This document shows positions 20,807 to 29,549 of a stretch of DNA of 41,113 nt, in pieces. This DNA is from Candidatus Acidiferrum typicum (GTDB lineage: Bacteria; Acidobacteriota; Terriglobia; Acidiferrales; UBA7541). The notes beneath the pieces were generated by a model. It had not been told where the DNA came from and did not search any database. It worked only from the letters and a program-made list of their open reading frames with translations. The number at the start of each line of letters is the position of its first letter. Within the stretch, counting starts at the first letter, position 1. The translations under genes and the position numbers were made by a program. Location: positions 1 to 41,113 of the forward strand of contig JAOAPV010000130.1 of the NCBI GenBank assembly GCA_025463055.1. Reading direction: 5' to 3'.

Positions 20807-21892
20807 CTAAAAGCCGAAGAGCTTTCCTGCTCCGGCGACCAACGCTAATGTGAACACGGCGATGACCACCTCGCCAATCGCGCCTACAGCGAAAGGCCGC
20901 AATCCCTGTTTCCGCATTTCGCGGAAATTGGTACGCAAGCCAACACCCGCGAACGTCAGAAGGAATGCCCAGCGCGAGAGATTAGCGAGCGCCGTGGTCT
21001 GATCCTTGGTGAAGAAGTGGTACGTCGCGAGGATCGAAATCAACAGGAAGCCGAGAACGAATTTCGGGAATTTCTGCCACAGAAATGCCGCTTTGTTTCC
21101 CACCGTCTTGGCTTGCCCGCGGCTGGCCCAGTAGATCGCATACGCGAGCACGACGAATCCGATCATCGCATTGCGCGTGGTCTTGGCCAGCACGGCTAGT
21201 TTGCCGGCCGCGTCGGAGTACAGCGCCCCAGCAGCGGTCGCTTCGGCGGTGTTGTCGACGGCCAGGCCAGCCCATAGGCCATACGCATGATCGCTGAGGT
21301 GCAGCGCGTGGCCAATCAACGGAAATGTAAAGAGCGACAGAGCGCCAAGAGCAAGAATTGCGGCGATGGCGAACGACGAGTCTTCGTCATCGGCTTCGAT
21401 GGCTCCTTGCGTGGCGATAATCGCGCTGACACCGCAAACCGCCGACCCGACAGCCAGCAATGAAGTCAGCTTCGGGCGCAGGCCGAAAGCCCGGCCAAGA
21501 AAAGTCATGAACGCAATCGCGCCGGCAATCTCGATGGCCACAAGCGCCAAGCTCACGCCGCCAAGTTTCAGCACGTCGCCGAGCAGAAAACGCGAACCGA
21601 GCAGCACGATGCCGGCCTTCAGCCAAAATTCGTAGGTCGCCACTCCGGCTCGGAAGATCTGTGGCACTCCGACAGTATTTGAAATCGCCAAGCCAATGAG
21701 AATCGCCCACAGGACGTACTCAATATTCGGGAACGTCCAGTGATGCGCTTTGGCGTAGGTCCCGACGTTCCGCTCGAGCAGCTTGCCGGCATACCCGACC
21801 GCGGCGAGCAGCAGCACGCCGGGAATCACGCGGAAAAATTGAACAGCAGGCTGAGCCGGCCTTGATTGAGGTAATGCGATTGCGTCCGCCAT
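20807..21892 (-). CDS. YeiH/UPF0324-family membrane protein (putative sulfate/sulfite exporter)
   Basis: A 361-residue inner-membrane protein with about ten helices, of the UPF0324 (YeiH, PSE) family. Family signatures include GLAISNTVG (about 72-80), FWLKAGIVLLGSRFLLGDV (about 90-108), LLAVGSAVCGVSAIIATQGA (about 146-165) and VGLRTNFREMRKQGLRP near the C-terminus. AAAGGAAAC stands just before ATG 21892. It is the last gene of the operon with sulfite reductase and siroheme synthesis genes. Related proteins are proposed to export sulfate or sulfite, and this placement supports handling of sulfite or sulfide (inference). The preceding 43-residue membrane protein gene is 30 bp upstream. Confidence 0.88.
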   Translation of the reverse strand: MADAIALPQSRPAQPAVQFFRVIPGVLLLAAVGYAGKLLERNVGTYAKAHHWTFPNIEYVLWAILIGLAISNTVGVPQIFRAGVATYEFWLKAGIVLLGSRFLLGDVLKLGGVSLALVAIEIAGAIAFMTFLGRAFGLRPKLTSLLAVGSAVCGVSAIIATQGAIEADDEDSSFAIAAILALGALSLFTFPLIGHALHLSDHAYGLWAGLAVDNTAEATAAGALYSDAAGKLAVLAKTTRNAMIGFVVLAYAIYWASRGQAKTVGNKAAFLWQKFPKFVLGFLLISILATYHFFTKDQTTALANLSRWAFLLTFAGVGLRTNFREMRKQGLRPFAVGAIGEVVIAVFTLALVAGAGKLFGF

Positions 21893-22076: not shown

Positions 22077-22850
22077 TCAACTGACGACGGTATGCCGTGT
22101 CTGCCTTTCGCTCGGCTCACCGCGCCAGAATTCCTTGCTGATTTCTTGGAGTTTTTGCGATGCAACGCGACCCACAATCATCAGTGCCGGCGCGGGAAGT
22201 CTCTCCTCGTGTCCCAGCCGCGCAACGCTAGTCCATCGAATTTGCTGCTCCACACCTGTAGCGTTGGAAACGATCACGCACGGCAAGTCGTCCGGCAGGC
22301 CACCCTCGCGAAGACGATGTGCGACTTCGGCATAGTCAGGTCCGGGCATGTAGAGCGCAAGGGTCGTCGTGCTGGTGATAGCGCCCCAATCCATCGACGC
22401 ACCTTCCGTGCCGCGCGAAAATGTGCTGATCACGATTTGCGAAGCAGCCCGGCGATCGGTGAGCGAAATCCCCGCCGCTGCCGCGGCGCCAAGCGCCGCA
22501 GTGATGCCCGGCACGATTTCAAACTCGACTCCTGCATTGCGCAGGGCTTCGATCTCTTCTCCGGCACGCCCAAAAACCAAGGGGTCGCCTCCCTTGAGGC
22601 GAACGACGATTTCATGGTTCGCGGCAGCGGACACCAGCAGCGAATTGATTTCCTCTTGCGTGAGCAGCTTGTGTCCGCTGCGCTTGCCAACGTCGATTAC
22701 TTCGGCATCGCGCGCGATCAAGCCCAGAACTTCACGACTAACGAGCGAATCGTGAAACACAATGCCAGCCCGCGAGAGCAGCCGCGTCGCTTTCACGGTG
22801 AGCAGCTCCGGATCGCCAGGGCCCGCGCCAACCAAGTACACTTTGCCCAT
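22077..22850 (-). CDS. cobA: Uroporphyrinogen-III C-methyltransferase (SUMT)
   Basis: A 257-residue SAM-dependent enzyme that methylates uroporphyrinogen III twice to precorrin-2, the first step to siroheme. SUMT signatures are VYLVGAGPGDPELLTVKA (about residues 4-21), VVRLKGGDPLVFGRAGEE (about 80-97) and VPGITAALGAAAAAGISLTD (about 111-130). The Gly-rich loop GAGPGDP and GGDPLVFGR bind SAM. ATG 22850 shares its A with the stop codon TGA of the upstream dehydrogenase gene (22852-22850), so translation is coupled. A GTG codon directly before it is an alternative start. It supplies siroheme for the reductase encoded first in the operon. Confidence 0.93.
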   Translation of the reverse strand: MGKVYLVGAGPGDPELLTVKATRLLSRAGIVFHDSLVSREVLGLIARDAEVIDVGKRSGHKLLTQEEINSLLVSAAANHEIVVRLKGGDPLVFGRAGEEIEALRNAGVEFEIVPGITAALGAAAAAGISLTDRRAASQIVISTFSRGTEGASMDWGAITSTTTLALYMPGPDYAEVAHRLREGGLPDDLPCVIVSNATGVEQQIRWTSVARLGHEERLPAPALMIVGRVASQKLQEISKEFWRGEPSERQTRHTVVS

Positions 22851-23467
22851 CACGCCGCTCCGTTCCCTGCGCGCTGCCGTCGCGCTTCCTGCAGGAAACG
22901 CACGAACATCGGCTCGCTTGCCAGATGATGTAGCAGCACCTTTTTGGAATCCGCGCTATTGTCTCCAGCGCGAAGGAGTTCCCTCGCAGCGCCCAGCCAT
23001 TCGAGCCACAGTTCGTACTCAGGACCAAATTGCTTTTCCAGTTGCAAACGAAGACGCTGCGCCAGCGCCGGACTCTTCCCGTTGGTGGAAATGGCGATCT
23101 GCAAATCGCCGCGCTGCACAACGGAGCCGTAGTAAAAATGGCAGTGTTCGATGTCATCGACGGCGTTGCACAGAATTCCCCGAGCATCAGCCTCGCTAAA
23201 AACGGCCTCGTTCACGCCGGGCGCAGAGGTAGCGGCGATGACCAGGAAAGCGCCATCCAAGTCGGCCGGGGCAAACGTCTTTGCCTTCCATTCGAATCTC
23301 CCCTGCGCGACCCACTGCGCAATGGCCGCCGTAACCTGCGGCGCGACAACGCGAACGCGCGCCTCCGCCGCAAACAGTCCCTCAATCTTGCCTTCCGCTA
23401 TAGCTCCGCCGCCGACCACGACAACAAGCCGCTCTCGAAGCTTCACGAAAATTGGCAGCAGGCTCAT
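22850..23467 (-). CDS. Precorrin-2 dehydrogenase / sirohydrochlorin ferrochelatase (CysG N-terminal/Met8 type)
   Basis: A 205-residue enzyme completing siroheme synthesis: NAD-dependent oxidation of precorrin-2 to sirohydrochlorin, then iron insertion. The N-terminal NAD fold is VVVVGGGAIAEGKIEGL (about residues 15-31), and the family motif AISTNGKSPALAQRLR (about 125-140) follows the central domain. In the fused enzyme CysG this module is joined to SUMT; here the two are separate, overlapping genes. It starts 2 bp after the stop of the sulfite reductase gene, so the three genes form one tight unit. Confidence 0.9.
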   Translation of the reverse strand: MSLLPIFVKLRERLVVVVGGGAIAEGKIEGLFAAEARVRVVAPQVTAAIAQWVAQGRFEWKAKTFAPADLDGAFLVIAATSAPGVNEAVFSEADARGILCNAVDDIEHCHFYYGSVVQRGDLQIAISTNGKSPALAQRLRLQLEKQFGPEYELWLEWLGAARELLRAGDNSADSKKVLLHHLASEPMFVRFLQEARRQRAGNGAA

Positions 23468-23469
23468 GA

Positions 23470-25170
23470 CTAGCCTTCCACTCCAATCGGCACAGGACCA
23501 GTCGATGCATCGCGCTCCACCGATGCGACCAATTGCCCGGCAAGCACTGCGCGAATTTGCTCATTCGAGTGCCGCGCGAAAAATCTGCGCAGGTTTTCCC
23601 CTGAATCGCGTCGCTCGTTGAATTCGCGCAGCAGCCGCTCGATCGCATCAGGCACTTCCGAAGCCGCGCAACGATATCCGACGGGCCGCGCAATTGACGC
23701 AAACTCGCCCACGCTGCCACCCACGCAGAAGTAATACGCGTCGGCCATGCGCCCATCGATCTTCAACTTCTTACCCTCAATCCCAATGTCCGCGATCCAG
23801 TGCTGGCCGCAACTGTTCGGGCAACCGGTGATGTGCAACTTGAGCTGCTCCTGAAATCCAGGAAGCCGCTGATCGAGTTCCTCCGTGAGCCACCGAGCGA
23901 AGCTCTTCGTCTCGGTCAGCGCCAGCTTGCAGAACTCAGACCCCGTGCAGGCAACGGTGCCGCGCGCAAAAGCGGAAGCACGCACTGGCAGCCCCACGGC
24001 GCTCAATTCGCCCGCAACTCTTGATGCATGCTCATTCGGAACATTCACGATAAGCAGGTTCTGCATGATCGTGTTCCGGAGATGCCCATCGGCGTATTGG
24101 TCGGAGAGATTGGCCGCAGTACGCAACTGCTCCGGCGTAATGCGCCCGCGCAGCACGTTAGCGCCGACGTACGAAAAACCTTGCTGCCTCTGCGCGTGAA
24201 TGCCAACGTGATCGCGATGAATATCCGAAGGAAGCTCTTCCGGTTCCGCAGGATCAAGCGCAAACCCAAGCCGATCCTGCAGCGCATCCAAAAATGATTC
24301 CGCGGTCCACCCATGCTGCAAAAACAGAAACTTCAGCCGAGCACGCTCGCGGTTTTGGCGCAGCACCTCGGATTGGCGAAAGAGTTCCGCAACGCCGCGC
24401 ACGACCGGAACGGCTTGCTCCCATCGCACGAACGCGTTCAAACGCACGCCAAGATGCGGATCGGTGGAAAGCCCGCCTGCCACGCGCAAAGAAAATCCAA
24501 CTTCTTCCCCGTGCAAGCGCTTGCGCGTAATCGCGGTAAGCCCCACATCGTTGATCTCTGGATACGTGCACCAGGACCGGCAGCCGGTAATCGAAACCTT
24601 GAACTTTCGCGGCAAATTGTAAAACTCGGAATTGCCGCCAAGCTGCCCATTCAATTCCGTAGCCAGGGGTGAAGCGTCGCAGTATTCGTGCGCGTCAAAC
24701 CCGGCCAGCGGGCACCCTGTAATATTTCGTACCACGTCGCCGCACGCCCCGGTGGTCGACAATCCCACCCGCCACAGCCCCTCCAGAACCTCTGGTAGCG
24801 ATTCGATCGTCACCCAATGGAACTGCACATTCTGTCGCACGGTAATATCCGCGACACCGCGAGCGTGGCGCTCGGCAAGGTCGGCGATGGTGCGCGCCTG
24901 GTGACTGCTCAGGAGGCCGTTGGGAATTCGGATGCGCACCATAAAGAACGGCGTCGCTTTCCCTTCGCCATTCTTTCCACCGACCACGCCGGCGCCGTCG
25001 CCCTGCGTGTAAACACCCCACGAACGAAAATATGTGCCCAGCCATTCCGGCGGAATCGAAGCGTGACCCTGCCGCGCAAACGCTCGAATCTCGTCAAAAT
25101 GCTCCCAGGCATTCTTCTCGCGTTTTAGCCGCTCGACGCGCTGTGCTTTGGTTTCCTTGATCTCGCTCAT
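23470..25170 (-). CDS. Siroheme [4Fe-4S] sulfite/nitrite reductase, ferredoxin-type
   Basis: A 566-residue assimilatory reductase reducing sulfite to sulfide (or nitrite to ammonium) by six electrons. It has the two-fold repeated reductase architecture: the N-terminal half contains QARTIADLAERHARG and VRQNVQFHW (about 90-120), and the cluster ligands lie in the second half as ACTGSEFCKLA (Cys about 407 and 413) and GCPNSCGQHW (Cys about 448 and 452). Sulfite and nitrite reductases share this layout. The cysteine-coding leader upstream favours sulfite. ATG 25170 was chosen over an in-frame ATG at 25233, which lies inside the terminator hairpin; GCAGGAAC precedes 25170. The following genes make its siroheme. 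Confidence 0.88.
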   Translation of the reverse strand: MSEIKETKAQRVERLKREKNAWEHFDEIRAFARQGHASIPPEWLGTYFRSWGVYTQGDGAGVVGGKNGEGKATPFFMVRIRIPNGLLSSHQARTIADLAERHARGVADITVRQNVQFHWVTIESLPEVLEGLWRVGLSTTGACGDVVRNITGCPLAGFDAHEYCDASPLATELNGQLGGNSEFYNLPRKFKVSITGCRSWCTYPEINDVGLTAITRKRLHGEEVGFSLRVAGGLSTDPHLGVRLNAFVRWEQAVPVVRGVAELFRQSEVLRQNRERARLKFLFLQHGWTAESFLDALQDRLGFALDPAEPEELPSDIHRDHVGIHAQRQQGFSYVGANVLRGRITPEQLRTAANLSDQYADGHLRNTIMQNLLIVNVPNEHASRVAGELSAVGLPVRASAFARGTVACTGSEFCKLALTETKSFARWLTEELDQRLPGFQEQLKLHITGCPNSCGQHWIADIGIEGKKLKIDGRMADAYYFCVGGSVGEFASIARPVGYRCAASEVPDAIERLLREFNERRDSGENLRRFFARHSNEQIRAVLAGQLVASVERDASTGPVPIGVEG

Positions 25171-25197
25171 GTTCCTGCCCCAAAAAATCCATCCCCA

Positions 25198-25239
25198 AAA
25201 ACAAAAAACCCACGTTGGCCTGACCTCTGGCAACGTGGG
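25198..25239 (-). terminator. Intrinsic terminator in the leader of the sulfite operon (attenuator)
   Basis: On the - strand, CCCACGTTG (25239 to 25231) pairs with CAACGTGGG (25217 to 25209), a 9-bp stem with a 13-base loop, followed by TTTTTTGTTTTT. It sits between the leader peptide stop (25266) and the reductase start (25170), so it ends transcripts before the structural genes unless disrupted. Confidence 0.88.
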
Positions 25240-25293
25240 CTTCGGAACTTACGCTTGCTTTACGTCTAAGTCCTGAAAATCCTTTGGCCAGAG
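25225..25293 (-). promoter_or_regulatory. Candidate antiterminator pairing
   Basis: On the - strand CTCTGGCCAA (25293 to 25284, inside the leader ORF) can pair with TTGCCAGAG (25233 to 25225), nine pairs with one bulged C. The second segment overlaps the 5' arm and loop of the terminator, so the two structures exclude each other. The first arm lies 14 bases after the last Cys codon of the leader ORF, the spacing expected of a ribosome-stalling attenuator. Confidence 0.65.
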
Positions 25294-25361
25294 ATGGTCG
25301 TCTTGCGACACGCAGCGTTACACGCGCAAGAACAACAGATCATCTGGCAGCAGTTACTCAT
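25266..25361 (-). CDS. Cysteine-rich leader peptide of the sulfite operon (attenuation uORF)
   Basis: A 31-codon ORF: ATG at 25361, TAG ending at 25266. The peptide begins MSNCCQMICCSCACNAAC, so seven of the first 18 residues are Cys (4, 5, 9, 10, 12, 14, 18), encoded by both TGC and TGT. The rest (RKTTISGQRIFRT) has none. There is no ribosome-binding site, but the promoter -10 ends only 9 bases before the ATG, so the transcript would start at or within about two bases of it and be translated leaderlessly. An attenuation role is inferred from the Cys run, the overlapping antiterminator arm and the terminator before the reductase gene. The class is known: polycysteine leaderless ORFs act as cysteine-responsive attenuators in mycobacteria. 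Confidence 0.78.
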   Translation of the reverse strand: MSNCCQMICCSCACNAACRKTTISGQRIFRT

Positions 25362-25370
25362 CGAGTCTAG

Positions 25371-25400
25371 AGAATACGTTTGACAGCCTGCGAAAGTCAA
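25371..25400 (-). promoter_or_regulatory. Sigma70-like promoter of the sulfite operon leader
   Basis: On the - strand TTGACT (25400 to 25395), an 18-bp spacer and TATTCT (25376 to 25371): 5 of 6 and 4 of 6 to consensus. The start of transcription should fall near 25361-25364, at the first codon of the cysteine leader. Confidence 0.6.
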
Positions 25401-26282: not shown

Positions 26283-27506
26283 CTACTTCGCAGAATTCAA
26301 TTCACGGCTTACGCGCTCTACTTCCGACATCACATGCAAAGTATTTTCGCCCAGAATCTTACGCACATCCTCTTCAGAATAGCCCTTACGAAGCAGCGCC
26401 TCGGTGATCTGCGGCAGCTTACTCGCATCCTCCATCCCGAACGGCATGTTCGCACCGTCAAAATCGGAGCCGAGCCCGACATGGTCGGCGCCCACCAGCT
26501 TCACCGCATGATCAATGTGCTCGATAATTTTCGTGTATTCCACGCGCGGCAGCTTGCCCTGCTTCACATATTCCCGAGTAATACGGTCGCCTTCAATTAA
26601 TTGACAGCCTTCCTTGTCACCGCAGCGCTTCTGCACCTCGTCGGCAATCGCTTTCGCAATCTCTGGATTCTTGTCGGCGTGCATAAATTCCTCGCTGAGA
26701 AAGCCGACGTGATAATTAATTTGGATGACCCCGCCCTTCGCCGCCAAATCCTTAATCATCTGATCGGTCATGTTGCGCTTAGCATCGCAGAGCGCACGGC
26801 AAGAAGAATGGGAAGCGATCAGTGGAGCTTTGCTGACCGCTAAAGTATCGTAAAACGTCTTGTCGCTGACGTGCGAAATGTCCACCATTACGCCAAGCCG
26901 GTTCATCTCGCGAACCACATCTTTGCCAAAATCGGTCAATCCGTTGTGCGCAGCCGCGTCCGTGGAAGAATCCGCCCATTCATCATTGCCGCTGTGCGTC
27001 AGAGTCATGTACCGCACGCCGAGTGCCGCATACGTGCGCAGCACCCCCAGGTCGCTGGCAATCATGTGCCCGCCTTCGACCCCCATAAGCGCCGCAATTT
27101 TGCCCCGCTTGCGTGCGTCGCGAACTTCCGCCGCAGTAGTCACGAGTACGATCTCCTGCGGATGACGGCGCACCTGCTCCCGCACCGCGTCAATTTGATC
27201 GACCGCGTGCTTAACCGCCTCAGGCCCGGTGATTTTGCTCGGAATCCAGATCGAAAAGAAAATCGCGCCCAGCCCGCCTTCCTTCATCCGTGGAATGTCG
27301 ATGCTGCCGCTCGCACTGCGCGCACCCAGGTCGAAATCTCCATCGAGAAAGCGCTGGGTCGTATCATCGTGCGTATCCACCACGATGGAAGCAAAGTGCA
27401 GCTTGCGTGCCCGCACCGAAATATCATCCGCTCGCGGCGTCGCGGTCATGACAATCCCCGCGATAACGCACAATGCCGCGCTGGCGACAATAATGTTTCG
27501 AAGCAT
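26283..27506 (-). CDS. Exported membrane dipeptidase (peptidase family M19), copy 1
   Basis: A 407-residue zinc-dependent dipeptidase with a signal peptide (about residues 4-26). The M19 metal sites are visible: DTHDDT (about 44-49; the classical motif is DGHND), GVEGGH (about 141-146), SHVSD and ASHSSCRAL, and GSDFDGAN. The signature GVRYMTLTH is also present. M19 enzymes hydrolyse dipeptides including D-amino acid and beta-lactam types. GAGGTGAA precedes the ATG. It lies 25 bp after a close paralogue, so the pair arose by tandem duplication, and 30 bp before the cyclophilin gene. Confidence 0.92.
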   Translation of the reverse strand: MLRNIIVASAALCVIAGIVMTATPRADDISVRARKLHFASIVVDTHDDTTQRFLDGDFDLGARSASGSIDIPRMKEGGLGAIFFSIWIPSKITGPEAVKHAVDQIDAVREQVRRHPQEIVLVTTAAEVRDARKRGKIAALMGVEGGHMIASDLGVLRTYAALGVRYMTLTHSGNDEWADSSTDAAAHNGLTDFGKDVVREMNRLGVMVDISHVSDKTFYDTLAVSKAPLIASHSSCRALCDAKRNMTDQMIKDLAAKGGVIQINYHVGFLSEEFMHADKNPEIAKAIADEVQKRCGDKEGCQLIEGDRITREYVKQGKLPRVEYTKIIEHIDHAVKLVGADHVGLGSDFDGANMPFGMEDASKLPQITEALLRKGYSEEDVRKILGENTLHVMSEVERVSRELNSAK

Positions 27507-27531
27507 TTCACCTCGCCGACTTCCCCCGCAA

Positions 27532-28764
27532 TTAGTTTTGCGCCTGCAGTTCGTGGCTCACGTGTTCCACTTGTTCCATTACACGCAGCGTGTTCTCACC
27601 CAAGATCTTCCGGATATCTCCATCCGAATATCCCTTGCGCAGCAACGCTTCCGTGATTTTCGGCAGCTTCGAGCAGTCCTCCATGCCATCGGGCATCGTA
27701 GCTCCGTCAAAGTCTGAGCCGAGACCGACGTGATCAGCTCCAACAAGCTTCGCGGCATGGTCGATGTGATCCACGATCCGTTCCCAACTCACGCGCGGCA
27801 GCTTCCCTTCCGCCGTCATTTTCTGCTCCAGCGCAATTTGCGCCCGCTCGACGCATTCCTGATCGTCGCCACAGATCTTAGTCGCTTCATTGAGCGCTCC
27901 CACGACGCCCGCGCCGCCCGTGGCTTGGTCATAAGCGCTTTTGTACGCCTGATCGATGAAGCTCTTTTCGTAATTGATTTGTATAACGCCGCCCTTGGCC
28001 GCCAGCGCCTTGATCATGTCGTCCGACATATCCCGGACATGATCACAAAGCGCGCGGCAGGAGGAGTGTGAGGCAATCAGCGGCGCTCTACTGACCTCCA
28101 ATACGTCGTAAAAGGTCTTGTCGCTGACGTGCGAAATGTCCACCATGATTCCCTGCCGGTTCATTTCCCGCACAATCTCTTTGCCGTAATCAGTCAATCC
28201 GTTGTGCGCGGGCTTGTCGGTCGAAGAATCCGCCCACTCGTCATTGTAGAAATGCGTCAGGGTCATGTAGCGCACACCCAAGTCACCGAAAACACGCACC
28301 ATGCGAATGTCATTGCCGATCATGTGGCCGCCTTCGACACCCATCAGCGCTGCAATCTTGCCCTGCGCGTGCGCGCGGCGGACCTCTTCGGCGGTGCGTG
28401 CAAATACCAGGTCCTTCGAGAACTTCCGCACGTTCTCATGCACCGCGTCGATTTGGTCAAGCGCCTTCTGCACCGCGGGCGGGCCCATGATTCGTCCGTC
28501 GATCCAGATGGAGAAGAAGATCGCACTCATTCCTCCCTCGCGCATACGCGGAATATCCACGTGGCCATCCGGATTGCGTTTGCCGAGATCGTAGCCTTTA
28601 GAGAAAAACCTCTGGGTGGTGTCGTCGTGCGTGTCGAGCACGATAGAGGAGAAATGAAGTTGGTGCGCGCGATCAGCGATCGCGTCAGCAGCGCTGCCCC
28701 GCACCAACAGTCCGCCTGTCGTCGCACATACCATCACGCAAAACAATGCAAGAATCCGACGCAT
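27532..28764 (-). CDS. Exported membrane dipeptidase (peptidase family M19), copy 2
   Basis: A 410-residue paralogue of the next gene, with the same metal motifs (DTHDDTTQRF, GVEGGH, SHVSD, SHSSCRAL, GSDFDGA) and a signal peptide (about residues 3-27). It differs mainly in the segment near residues 280-325, which has a Gly-rich insertion and two Cys (CGDDQECVERA) where the partner has CGDKEGC. ATG 28764 is chosen because GGAGGAGAA stands directly before it; the frame is open further upstream but without such a site. The gene follows sdhB by 32 bp. Divergent central segments suggest different peptide preferences (inference). Confidence 0.92.
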   Translation of the reverse strand: MRRILALFCVMVCATTGGLLVRGSAADAIADRAHQLHFSSIVLDTHDDTTQRFFSKGYDLGKRNPDGHVDIPRMREGGMSAIFFSIWIDGRIMGPPAVQKALDQIDAVHENVRKFSKDLVFARTAEEVRRAHAQGKIAALMGVEGGHMIGNDIRMVRVFGDLGVRYMTLTHFYNDEWADSSTDKPAHNGLTDYGKEIVREMNRQGIMVDISHVSDKTFYDVLEVSRAPLIASHSSCRALCDHVRDMSDDMIKALAAKGGVIQINYEKSFIDQAYKSAYDQATGGAGVVGALNEATKICGDDQECVERAQIALEQKMTAEGKLPRVSWERIVDHIDHAAKLVGADHVGLGSDFDGATMPDGMEDCSKLPKITEALLRKGYSDGDIRKILGENTLRVMEQVEHVSHELQAQN

Positions 28765-28796
28765 TTCTCCTCCAGGCCGAAGATGTGCGAGAGAGT

Positions 28797-29549
28797 TTAC
28801 CCTACCAGCCAGCCGAAAAGCGCCTGTTTCCACGCTTGGCGATTAATTTCCGCTAGCGACTCGGTCAAAGGAATTTCTTTGGGGCATGCCTTGACGCAAT
28901 TTTGCGCGTTGGCGCAGTCTTCGATGCCGCCGTCCCCCATCACCGCTTCGATGCGCTCTTTCGCATGCATTGCGCCCGTGGGGTGCATGTTAAACAGTCG
29001 CACCTGGCTGAAGATGGCCGCACCCATGAAATTATTGTTCTCGTTCACCTGCGGGCAGACTTCCAAGCAGTTGCCGCAAGTAATGCAACGCGAAAGCGGG
29101 TAAGCCTTCTCTTGCACTTCGGGCGAAACACGAGGACCTTCTCCGAGATTGTACGTCCCGTCGATTGGAATCCATGCCTTTACGCGCTTCAGGCTGTCAA
29201 ACATGAACTGCCGATCGACAGTAAGATCGCGAATCACCGGAAACTTCGAAAGCGGCTCGATACGAATCGGCTGCTCGAGTTGATCCACCAGCGCGGAACA
29301 TGCCATGCGCGCTTTGCCGTTAATCACCATCGCGCACGAGCCGCACACCTCTTCCAAGCAGTTGGAATCGTAAGACACCGGATTCGTCTGCTTGCCCTCG
29401 CGCGTAACCGGATGCTCCGCGATATCCCGCAGGCAGATGATCACGTTCATCGAGGGCCGCCACGGCAAAGCGAACTCCTCCCAGCGCGCAGCGTCTTTGG
29501 GGCTCGCCTGCCGTTTTACCTTCACGATGACCTGTTTGCCTTCTGCCAT
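28797..29549 (-). CDS. sdhB: Succinate dehydrogenase iron-sulfur subunit
   Basis: A 250-residue subunit carrying electrons from the flavoprotein to quinone. The N-terminal 2Fe-2S domain has CLEEVCGSC plus a later Cys (MACSALV), about residues 64-90. The C-terminal domain has CITCGNCLEVCP (about 155-166) and CVKACPKEIPL for the 4Fe-4S and 3Fe-4S clusters. ATG 29549 with GAGG just upstream was chosen over TTG 29567. Gene order sdhC-sdhA-sdhB matches the Bacillus-type succinate:menaquinone reductase. Confidence 0.94.
   Translation of the reverse strand: MAEGKQVIVKVKRQASPKDAARWEEFALPWRPSMNVIICLRDIAEHPVTREGKQTNPVSYDSNCLEEVCGSCAMVINGKARMACSALVDQLEQPIRIEPLSKFPVIRDLTVDRQFMFDSLKRVKAWIPIDGTYNLGEGPRVSPEVQEKAYPLSRCITCGNCLEVCPQVNENNNFMGAAIFSQVRLFNMHPTGAMHAKERIEAVMGDGGIEDCANAQNCVKACPKEIPLTESLAEINRQAWKQALFGWLVG

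Follow-up and report, generated by a model that had tools for sequence, protein, structure and literature searches.

The window, i.e., the whole 41,113-nucleotide stretch of contig JAOAPV010000130.1 from Candidatus Acidiferrum typicum analyzed here, carries on its minus strand a gene for a NirA-family siroheme reductase, taken as an assimilatory sulfite reductase, and this research work indicated that the leader ahead of this gene is highly likely to be a ribosome-mediated transcription attenuator, reading the charging of tRNA-Cys on an mRNA that is probably leaderless. The attenuator is very probably real, widely conserved and part of a regulon, and very probably acts on transcription. Its parts, their conservation, the bias in its cysteine (Cys) codons and its linkage to sulfur genes can be read directly from the DNA. 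An earlier note on this stretch had proposed such an attenuator, made of a promoter, a Cys-rich open reading frame (ORF), a pairing arm and a terminator; every one of these elements was indeed recovered, and comparison among relatives supported the cysteine reading. The elements of the leader are as follows, in order of transcription:

25395..25400, minus strand: -35 box TTGACT, found by a promoter scan
25371..25376, minus strand: -10 box TATTCT, close to the leader start codon, so that the mRNA is probably leaderless
25266..25361, minus strand: leader ORF of 31 codons, MSNCCQMICCSCACNAACRKTTISGQRIFRT, with seven Cys codons (3 TGC, 4 TGT) from 25352 to 25308
25343..25348, minus strand: region 1, GCCAGA, protector arm able to pair with region 2 (minimum free energy fold)
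25287..25295, minus strand: region 2, ATCTCTGGC, ORF arm of the antiterminator (folding and alignment)
25268..25274, minus strand: inner antiterminator stem, 5′ arm AGGACTT (most relatives have CGGACTT), which extends over the first base of the stop codon (alignment)
25243..25250, minus strand: inner antiterminator stem, 3′ arm AAGTTCCG (alignment)
25223..25231, minus strand: region 3, GCCAGAGGT, pairing with region 2 and overlapping the 5′ side of the terminator (folding and alignment)
25197..25242, minus strand: intrinsic terminator, a hairpin followed by TTTTTTGTTTTT (folding and comparison with shuffled leaders)

The Leader and Its Conservation

In the window, the two promoter boxes (25400-25395 and 25376-25371) are separated by an 18-nucleotide (nt) spacer, and the leader ATG (25361) follows the -10 box after 9 nt. 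The promoter scan gave a single match, this promoter, against a mean of 0.3 in shuffled sequences. All seven Cys residues lie within residues 1-18 of the leader peptide, and the stop codon occupies 25268-25266. The ORF arm CTCTGGC (25293-25287) is complementary to GCCAGAG (25231-25225), and the terminator hairpin (approximately 25242-25207) continues into its last segment at 25208-25197, with 26 nt from the T-run to the reductase ATG at 25170. This terminator folded at -22.8 kcal/mol (z -4.0), none of 200 shuffles being equally stable, and the entire leader gave a folding z of -4.4. The protector hairpin GCCAGA:TCTGGC, which flanks the Cys codons, was part of the minimum-energy fold of the leader. 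A simple terminator pattern did not detect the leader hairpin and reported a different site on the plus strand; no Rfam family matched at gathering scores in 20 loci. An fstAT match from Rfam in the window stretch was rejected, its E-value of 3.7 being at chance level.

Upstream DNA of reductase homologues was drawn from a family search (25 of 89 genomes), a class search (132 of 399 genomes, the two sets overlapping) and the 80 best named contigs. From 225 loci, 19 were dropped (15 without a recognizable reductase N-terminus, four with too little upstream DNA), leaving 206, of which 185 were unique; these 185 regions include many close relatives and are not independent. A strict test, requiring -35 and -10 boxes, a start codon 3-12 nt past the -10 box and an ORF 12-60 codons long containing three or more Cys, was passed by 136 of the 185 regions; the reverse strand gave four, and five dinucleotide-shuffled sets gave 5-7 each. 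With at least four Cys, the count was 124 vs. 3 on the reverse strand and 1-3 in the shuffles. Among the 136 leaders, the promoter spacer was 17 or 18 nt in 132, the start codon lay 6-11 nt past the -10 box in 131, and initiation was by ATG in 127 and by GTG in nine. Short ORFs are common, and one that arose by chance before an ordinary constitutive terminator could look like the window's leader; with these counts, and with the recurrence of the leader before other sulfur genes (see below), such an explanation is hardly credible.

The terminator ranked among the most constant elements of the leader, the ORF being followed by a GC-rich hairpin and a T-run in 136/136 leaders, against 24-27/136 shuffled ones; a simpler detector found it in 127/136 vs. 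7-13/136, the shuffles in both counts preserving base composition only. This constancy bears on a second explanation, translation attenuation as in mycobacteria, in which a stalled ribosome would alter access to the downstream ribosome-binding site and the hairpin would be no terminator in vivo. Polycysteine leaderless ORFs of Mycobacterium smegmatis, similar in layout, are indeed described as translation attenuators in the available portions of two papers (PMC13236596, PMC9031893). The hairpin and T-run behind every recognized leader ORF, the complementarity of the ORF arm to the 5′ arm of this hairpin and the distance from the T-run to the reductase ATG in the window argue for transcription attenuation, and render the translational alternative improbable.

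Codon choice differed between the leaders and the genes behind them. In 75 matched loci, the leader Cys codons comprised 327 TGT and 176 TGC, vs. 76 TGT and 790 TGC in the reductase genes (Fisher p 7e-109, relatedness ignored); all 136 leaders contained 538 TGT and 293 TGC, and eleven genes of the window 5 TGT and 48 TGC. As the genes behind prefer TGC, selection on the leaders seems to act on decoding, and not on the amino acid alone; RNA folding constraints could contribute to this bias. This is in line with a regulatory ORF rather than with a functional Cys-rich peptide, for instance a metal- or sulfur-binding one with incidental regulation, as might be imagined from the density of up to 10 Cys per approximately 30 residues. 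The leader peptides diverged strongly across clades, the run of Cys codons being retained, as judged by eye, with Cys differing in number and position; the constant residues near the peptide C-terminus coincided with RNA pairing arms, and the window peptide had no NCBIfam match. Together with the TGT bias, these observations make a functional peptide very improbable.

The leader was not confined to the window's operon or genus. Beyond the class, an ORF with at least three Cys was found in six of the 15 loci read: L305, L310, and L311, with NirA-like genes, showed leader-like poly-Cys ORFs with strong terminators, L307 was doubtful owing to a weak hairpin, and L308 and L315 looked like chance. 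None of seven reductase loci from Rokubacteriota/Methylomirabilota (L184, L197, L204, L215, L217, L219, and L225) passed the strict test. In four of these (L197, L217, L219, and L225), the best upstream Cys ORF has a small AKCxRCK motif and may specify a protein resembling rubredoxin rather than a leader. Five genomes from another family carry a second NirA-like copy, and a Cys ORF was found ahead of none of these; the result was the same for seven second NIR_SIR copies (L256, L258, L261, L267, L272, L274, and L275) in genomes of the genus that bear a leader-associated copy elsewhere.

Pairing Arms and Folding of the Transcript

Alignment of 13 leaders from the window's family, 11 of them from its genus, revealed an antiterminator made of two stems. 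In the outer stem, CTCTGGC of the ORF pairs with GCCAGAG within the terminator's 5′ side; the inner stem joins CGGACTT to AAGTTCCG, beginning in the final codons of the ORF and extending as far as the stop codon. The single ORF arm described in the earlier note thus stood as the outer stem; it was not the sole arm, a second stem across the stop codon having been overlooked. Because of this position, the inner stem would be physically disrupted by a ribosome standing at the stop codon. Standard pairs occupied 93.4% of cells in this alignment, against at most 51% when the partner was slid by 1-3 columns. A second alignment, of 43 leaders from other acidobacterial loci, gave an outer stem TCTGGCG:CGCCAGA and an inner stem TGCTGA:TCAGCA, with 89.8% standard pairs vs. 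at most 58% when slid. Other clades displayed, by eye, inner stems TCCGA:TCGGA and CTTTGC:GCAAAG; the differing inner stems across clades are taken as compensatory change, on visual comparison of the sequences. The GCC of region 1 was invariant in 13/13 family leaders and less constant across the 43 others. The RNAalifold consensus of the latter contained the terminator and an ORF-internal hairpin, the antiterminator being absent from it. Conservation of the ORF and of the mutually exclusive pairings in relatives, on which the earlier note had staked its proposal beforehand, was thus found.

The switch itself was modeled with a ribosome mask, on a transcript cut before the 3′ arm of the terminator, as at decision time. 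Under these conditions, the fraction of the terminator 5′ arm held by the ORF was 0.50 when the ribosome occupied Cys codons and 0.27 when it was at the stop, the former exceeding the latter by more than 0.1 in 97/136 leaders. Shuffling the codons downstream of the ribosome decreased the value from 0.50 to 0.40, real leaders exceeding shuffled ones in 92/136 (Wilcoxon p 3e-7). For the window's leader, the value remained at approximately 0.60 until the ribosome neared the arm and fell to 0.12 at the stop.

Several results weigh against an attenuator of this kind. The strict test left 49/185 regions without a leader, several of which (uncounted) displayed a Cys ORF by eye with a weaker -35 box. 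Within clades, covariation was modest, both sides having changed in 3/14 antiterminator pairs of the family alignment and 2/13 of the second; in the latter, most measures were barely above shuffles, and a version slid by -3 had as high a covariation score (0.077 vs. 0.074). When ORF and terminator arms were swapped among unrelated leaders, the preference for the own partner was weak (-23.2 vs. -19.5 kcal/mol), 17/135 loci individually reaching the 5% level; with shuffled arms as the comparison, 39/135 loci reached 1 in 30 or below. On the truncated transcript, the free RNA gave 0.39, between the Cys-stalled and stop states, and the reverse direction was obtained by more than 0.1 in 17/136 leaders. 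At full-length equilibrium, the terminator probability was 0.96 in the free transcript, 0.95 on average over Cys positions (lowest 0.90) and 0.96 at the stop, and a switch was seen in 6/136 leaders, the window's not among them. A switch between the mutually exclusive folds put forward in the earlier note was thus seen on the transcript cut before the terminator 3′ arm, whereas full-length equilibrium favors the terminator in nearly all leaders wherever the ribosome sits. As the terminator dominates at equilibrium and the switch appears only on the truncated transcript, the switch would be kinetic, which the in silico folding supports.

Proposed Mechanism and Comparison With Known Systems

From a mechanistic point of view, we infer from the arrangement described above that the leader is translated from a leaderless start, that the ribosome stalls on it, and in which direction control runs. 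RNA polymerase would start at or next to the leader ATG, where a ribosome would initiate. With ample Cys-tRNA, the ribosome would pass the Cys run and arrive at the stop codon, where it would cover the inner stem and part of the antiterminator arm, or else the protector 1:2 would re-form behind it; region 3 would then pair with region 4, and transcription would end ahead of the sulfite reductase gene. With scarce Cys-tRNA, the ribosome would stall on the Cys codons, mask region 1 and free region 2 together with the stem at the stop codon, so that the antiterminator would form before synthesis of the terminator 3′ arm, allowing transcription of the sir-cysG-cobA operon.

Attenuators of the trp type combine control codons, a protector 1:2, an antiterminator 2:3 and a terminator 3:4. 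The same four elements are present here, the protector being formed by GCCAGA with the ORF arm; the differences are that Cys is the regulatory amino acid, that the ORF starts at the promoter and that the antiterminator has a further stem extending to the stop codon.

Cysteine leaders have been described in other bacteria. In mycobacteria, short polycysteine leaderless ORFs are cysteine-responsive and located ahead of sulfur or cysteine genes, according to the available portions of the papers (PMC13236596, PMC9031893, PMC9094748, citing Canestrari et al. 2020). The acidobacterial leaders share with these, as far as described there, a short ORF containing a run of Cys before sulfur or cysteine genes, its leaderless start being probable and its response to cysteine predicted here; they differ in that translation attenuation is described there, whereas the conserved terminator and antiterminator imply transcription attenuation here. 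The phyla are different, and the likeness is one of layout, homology being unsupported. Candidate Cys leader peptides were also proposed for actinobacterial cys operons and for cbs of B. longum (PMC1262725), with Cys-codon runs in leader ORFs before sulfur genes as here, but without terminators in the part of this source consulted. Closer in this respect is the uORFC-8-2 motif of Rhodobacterales cysS, a predicted Cys-codon upstream ORF with an intrinsic terminator and presumed read-through at low Cys-tRNA (PMC8632094). As presented in the accessible text, this motif has two tandem Cys codons and is restricted to cysS and to Rhodobacterales, whereas the leaders reported here have 3-10 Cys codons, start at the promoter and precede several sulfur operons. 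At the reductase and cysD loci examined, the present leaders were found to lie outside this motif, since the genes downstream of them are a NirA-family reductase and cysD and the nearest named relatives are acidobacterial.

A survey of attenuators indicated, in its available portion, that almost no predicted attenuators of Acidobacteriota have an associated function (PMC2965389), and a literature search over titles and abstract openings of open-licence papers found, among the matches listed, no cysteine attenuation in this phylum, which leaves such absence unproven. The kind of mechanism is known; the combination, range and targets appear new, as a cysteine attenuator seemingly joining leaderless translation with intrinsic termination. 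Few soil bacteria are more common than Acidobacteriota, and one of their attenuators is here given a probable signal, mechanism, target operons and range.

Recurrence Before Other Sulfur Genes

The genome of the window contains three copies of the leader. The second (contig C144) is GTG-initiated, VNGFIPTTAACCRQQMTARAAVSCRGES, with its own promoter and terminator, and precedes cysD-cysN-cysH. PF01507 matched in 23/36 genomes of the genus; the 20 best loci, one per genome, were taken as cysD by position and similarity, the own-genome one alone being checked with NCBIfam. A relaxed test, in which the -35 box needs only TTG, found a Cys leader before cysD in 19/20 of these loci, vs. 0/20 on the reverse strand, with 73 TGT and 11 TGC codons. 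Of these 19 leaders, 13 had a terminator hairpin below -13 kcal/mol, four had no nearby T-run found, and two were weak (-9.3 and -3.9 kcal/mol). Before the three best cysteine-synthase-like loci of the window's own genome (L286-L288, L293-L295), a relaxed scan for at least three Cys found no leader.

A covariance model (R1), built from 24 leaders with seven base pairs and hence consisting mostly of sequence, gave 76 full-length matches (E ≤ 1.4e-9) in 32/36 genomes of the genus, training loci included. The four negative genomes (G004, G028, G030, and G035) were all among the five without a NIR_SIR match; in the fifth (G015), a leader was found before a rhodanese gene. At L264 (G016), the RNA model matched and the scan did not find a Cys ORF. 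Reading of 26 further match loci revealed a two-domain rhodanese-like gene behind the match in 15 (L347-L352, L354, L357-L360, L362, L363, L366, and L367), with a Cys ORF in 14 of the 15 in a relaxed scan (at least two Cys). These proteins mostly end in SSGAGRLS or similar; the one tested was over the cut-off for Pfam Rhodanese and below that of the 3-mercaptopyruvate sulfurtransferase model. One locus carried a sulfonate-type ABC transporter (SsuA family over cut-off), and one CobA-YeiH behind the leader match. An outer-membrane beta-barrel gene followed in L346 and L364 (Pfam) and, similarly by eye, in L368, a PQQ enzyme in L365, and L355 and L353 end or have unclear gene content. The weak matches L370-L372 contained no convincing leader. 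In L370 (G028:C1:303500-306820), where no Cys ORF accompanies the partial match (positions 63-167, E 5e-9), the genes behind appear by eye to encode aspartokinase and aspartate-semialdehyde dehydrogenase; the matched element is perhaps an attenuator for another amino acid.

The leader also seems able to outlast, or move between, the genes it precedes. In 12 loci of the genus (L257, L259, L260, L262, L263, L265, L266, L268-L271, and L273), in genomes without a window-type reductase, the leader stands before a different NIR_SIR gene, 30% identical to that of the window in the one tested. The same cyclophilin-type gene lay ahead in 12/12 and the same CobA gene behind in 10/12, with YeiH in one of the other two; a CysG-N gene was not found between reductase and CobA at these loci. 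Their leaders were 77-85% identical to the window's, no less similar than those of family loci with the orthologous reductase (70-82%). On the simplest reading of these sequences, one reductase gene would have been replaced by the other, in either direction, while the leader stayed. Different reductases behind one leader suggest that a regulatory element can outlast its gene. The third own-genome leader (L346, contig C71:41000-44700, minus strand), a non-training match (E 3.9e-14), is almost the same as that of cysD; behind it lie the truncated beginning of a cysD gene and then an intact-looking outer-membrane transporter (beta-barrel) gene. The leader module thus appears to have been duplicated with a stub of its former gene, and now stands before another gene.

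These leaderless, TGT-coded cysteine attenuators may constitute the main sulfur-limitation regulon of Acidobacteriota, a single portable cis module for sulfate activation, sulfite reduction, sulfurtransfer, sulfonate import and an outer-membrane transporter, which would persist upon gene replacement and spread by duplication with a gene stub; we consider this broader proposal evenly balanced between true and false. If true, the module may serve to mark, in readable form, genes for sulfur acquisition whose substrate is unknown. The leader would, in any case, offer a sequence tag for genes probably induced when cysteine is short, among them the gene for this outer-membrane transporter, whose substrate is likewise unknown.

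Downstream Operon and Neighboring Genes

The operon behind the window's leader comprises:

23470..25170, minus strand: the NirA-family siroheme reductase (566 amino acids), below every NCBIfam cut-off
22850..23467, minus strand: precorrin-2 dehydrogenase (CysG N-terminal domain), siroheme synthesis, TIGR01470 over cut-off
22077..22853, minus strand: uroporphyrinogen-III C-methyltransferase, siroheme synthesis, TIGR01469 over cut-off
20807..21892, minus strand: YeiH-type membrane protein, possibly the last operon gene, TIGR00698 below cut-off

The nearest named relative of the reductase, 93% identical, belongs to a Candidatus Acidoferrales record. Hidden Markov models left its substrate undecided, and sulfite is favored from the context, since siroheme genes accompany it, its Cys leader is of the cysDNH kind and the leader is missing from other NirA-like copies; a nitrite-reductase operon was rejected. 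At a few other loci, too, a gene related to YeiH lies behind the reductase. Elsewhere in the window, two adjacent genes at 26283-28833 on the minus strand both encode a membrane dipeptidase (peptidase M19), apparently as a tandem duplication.
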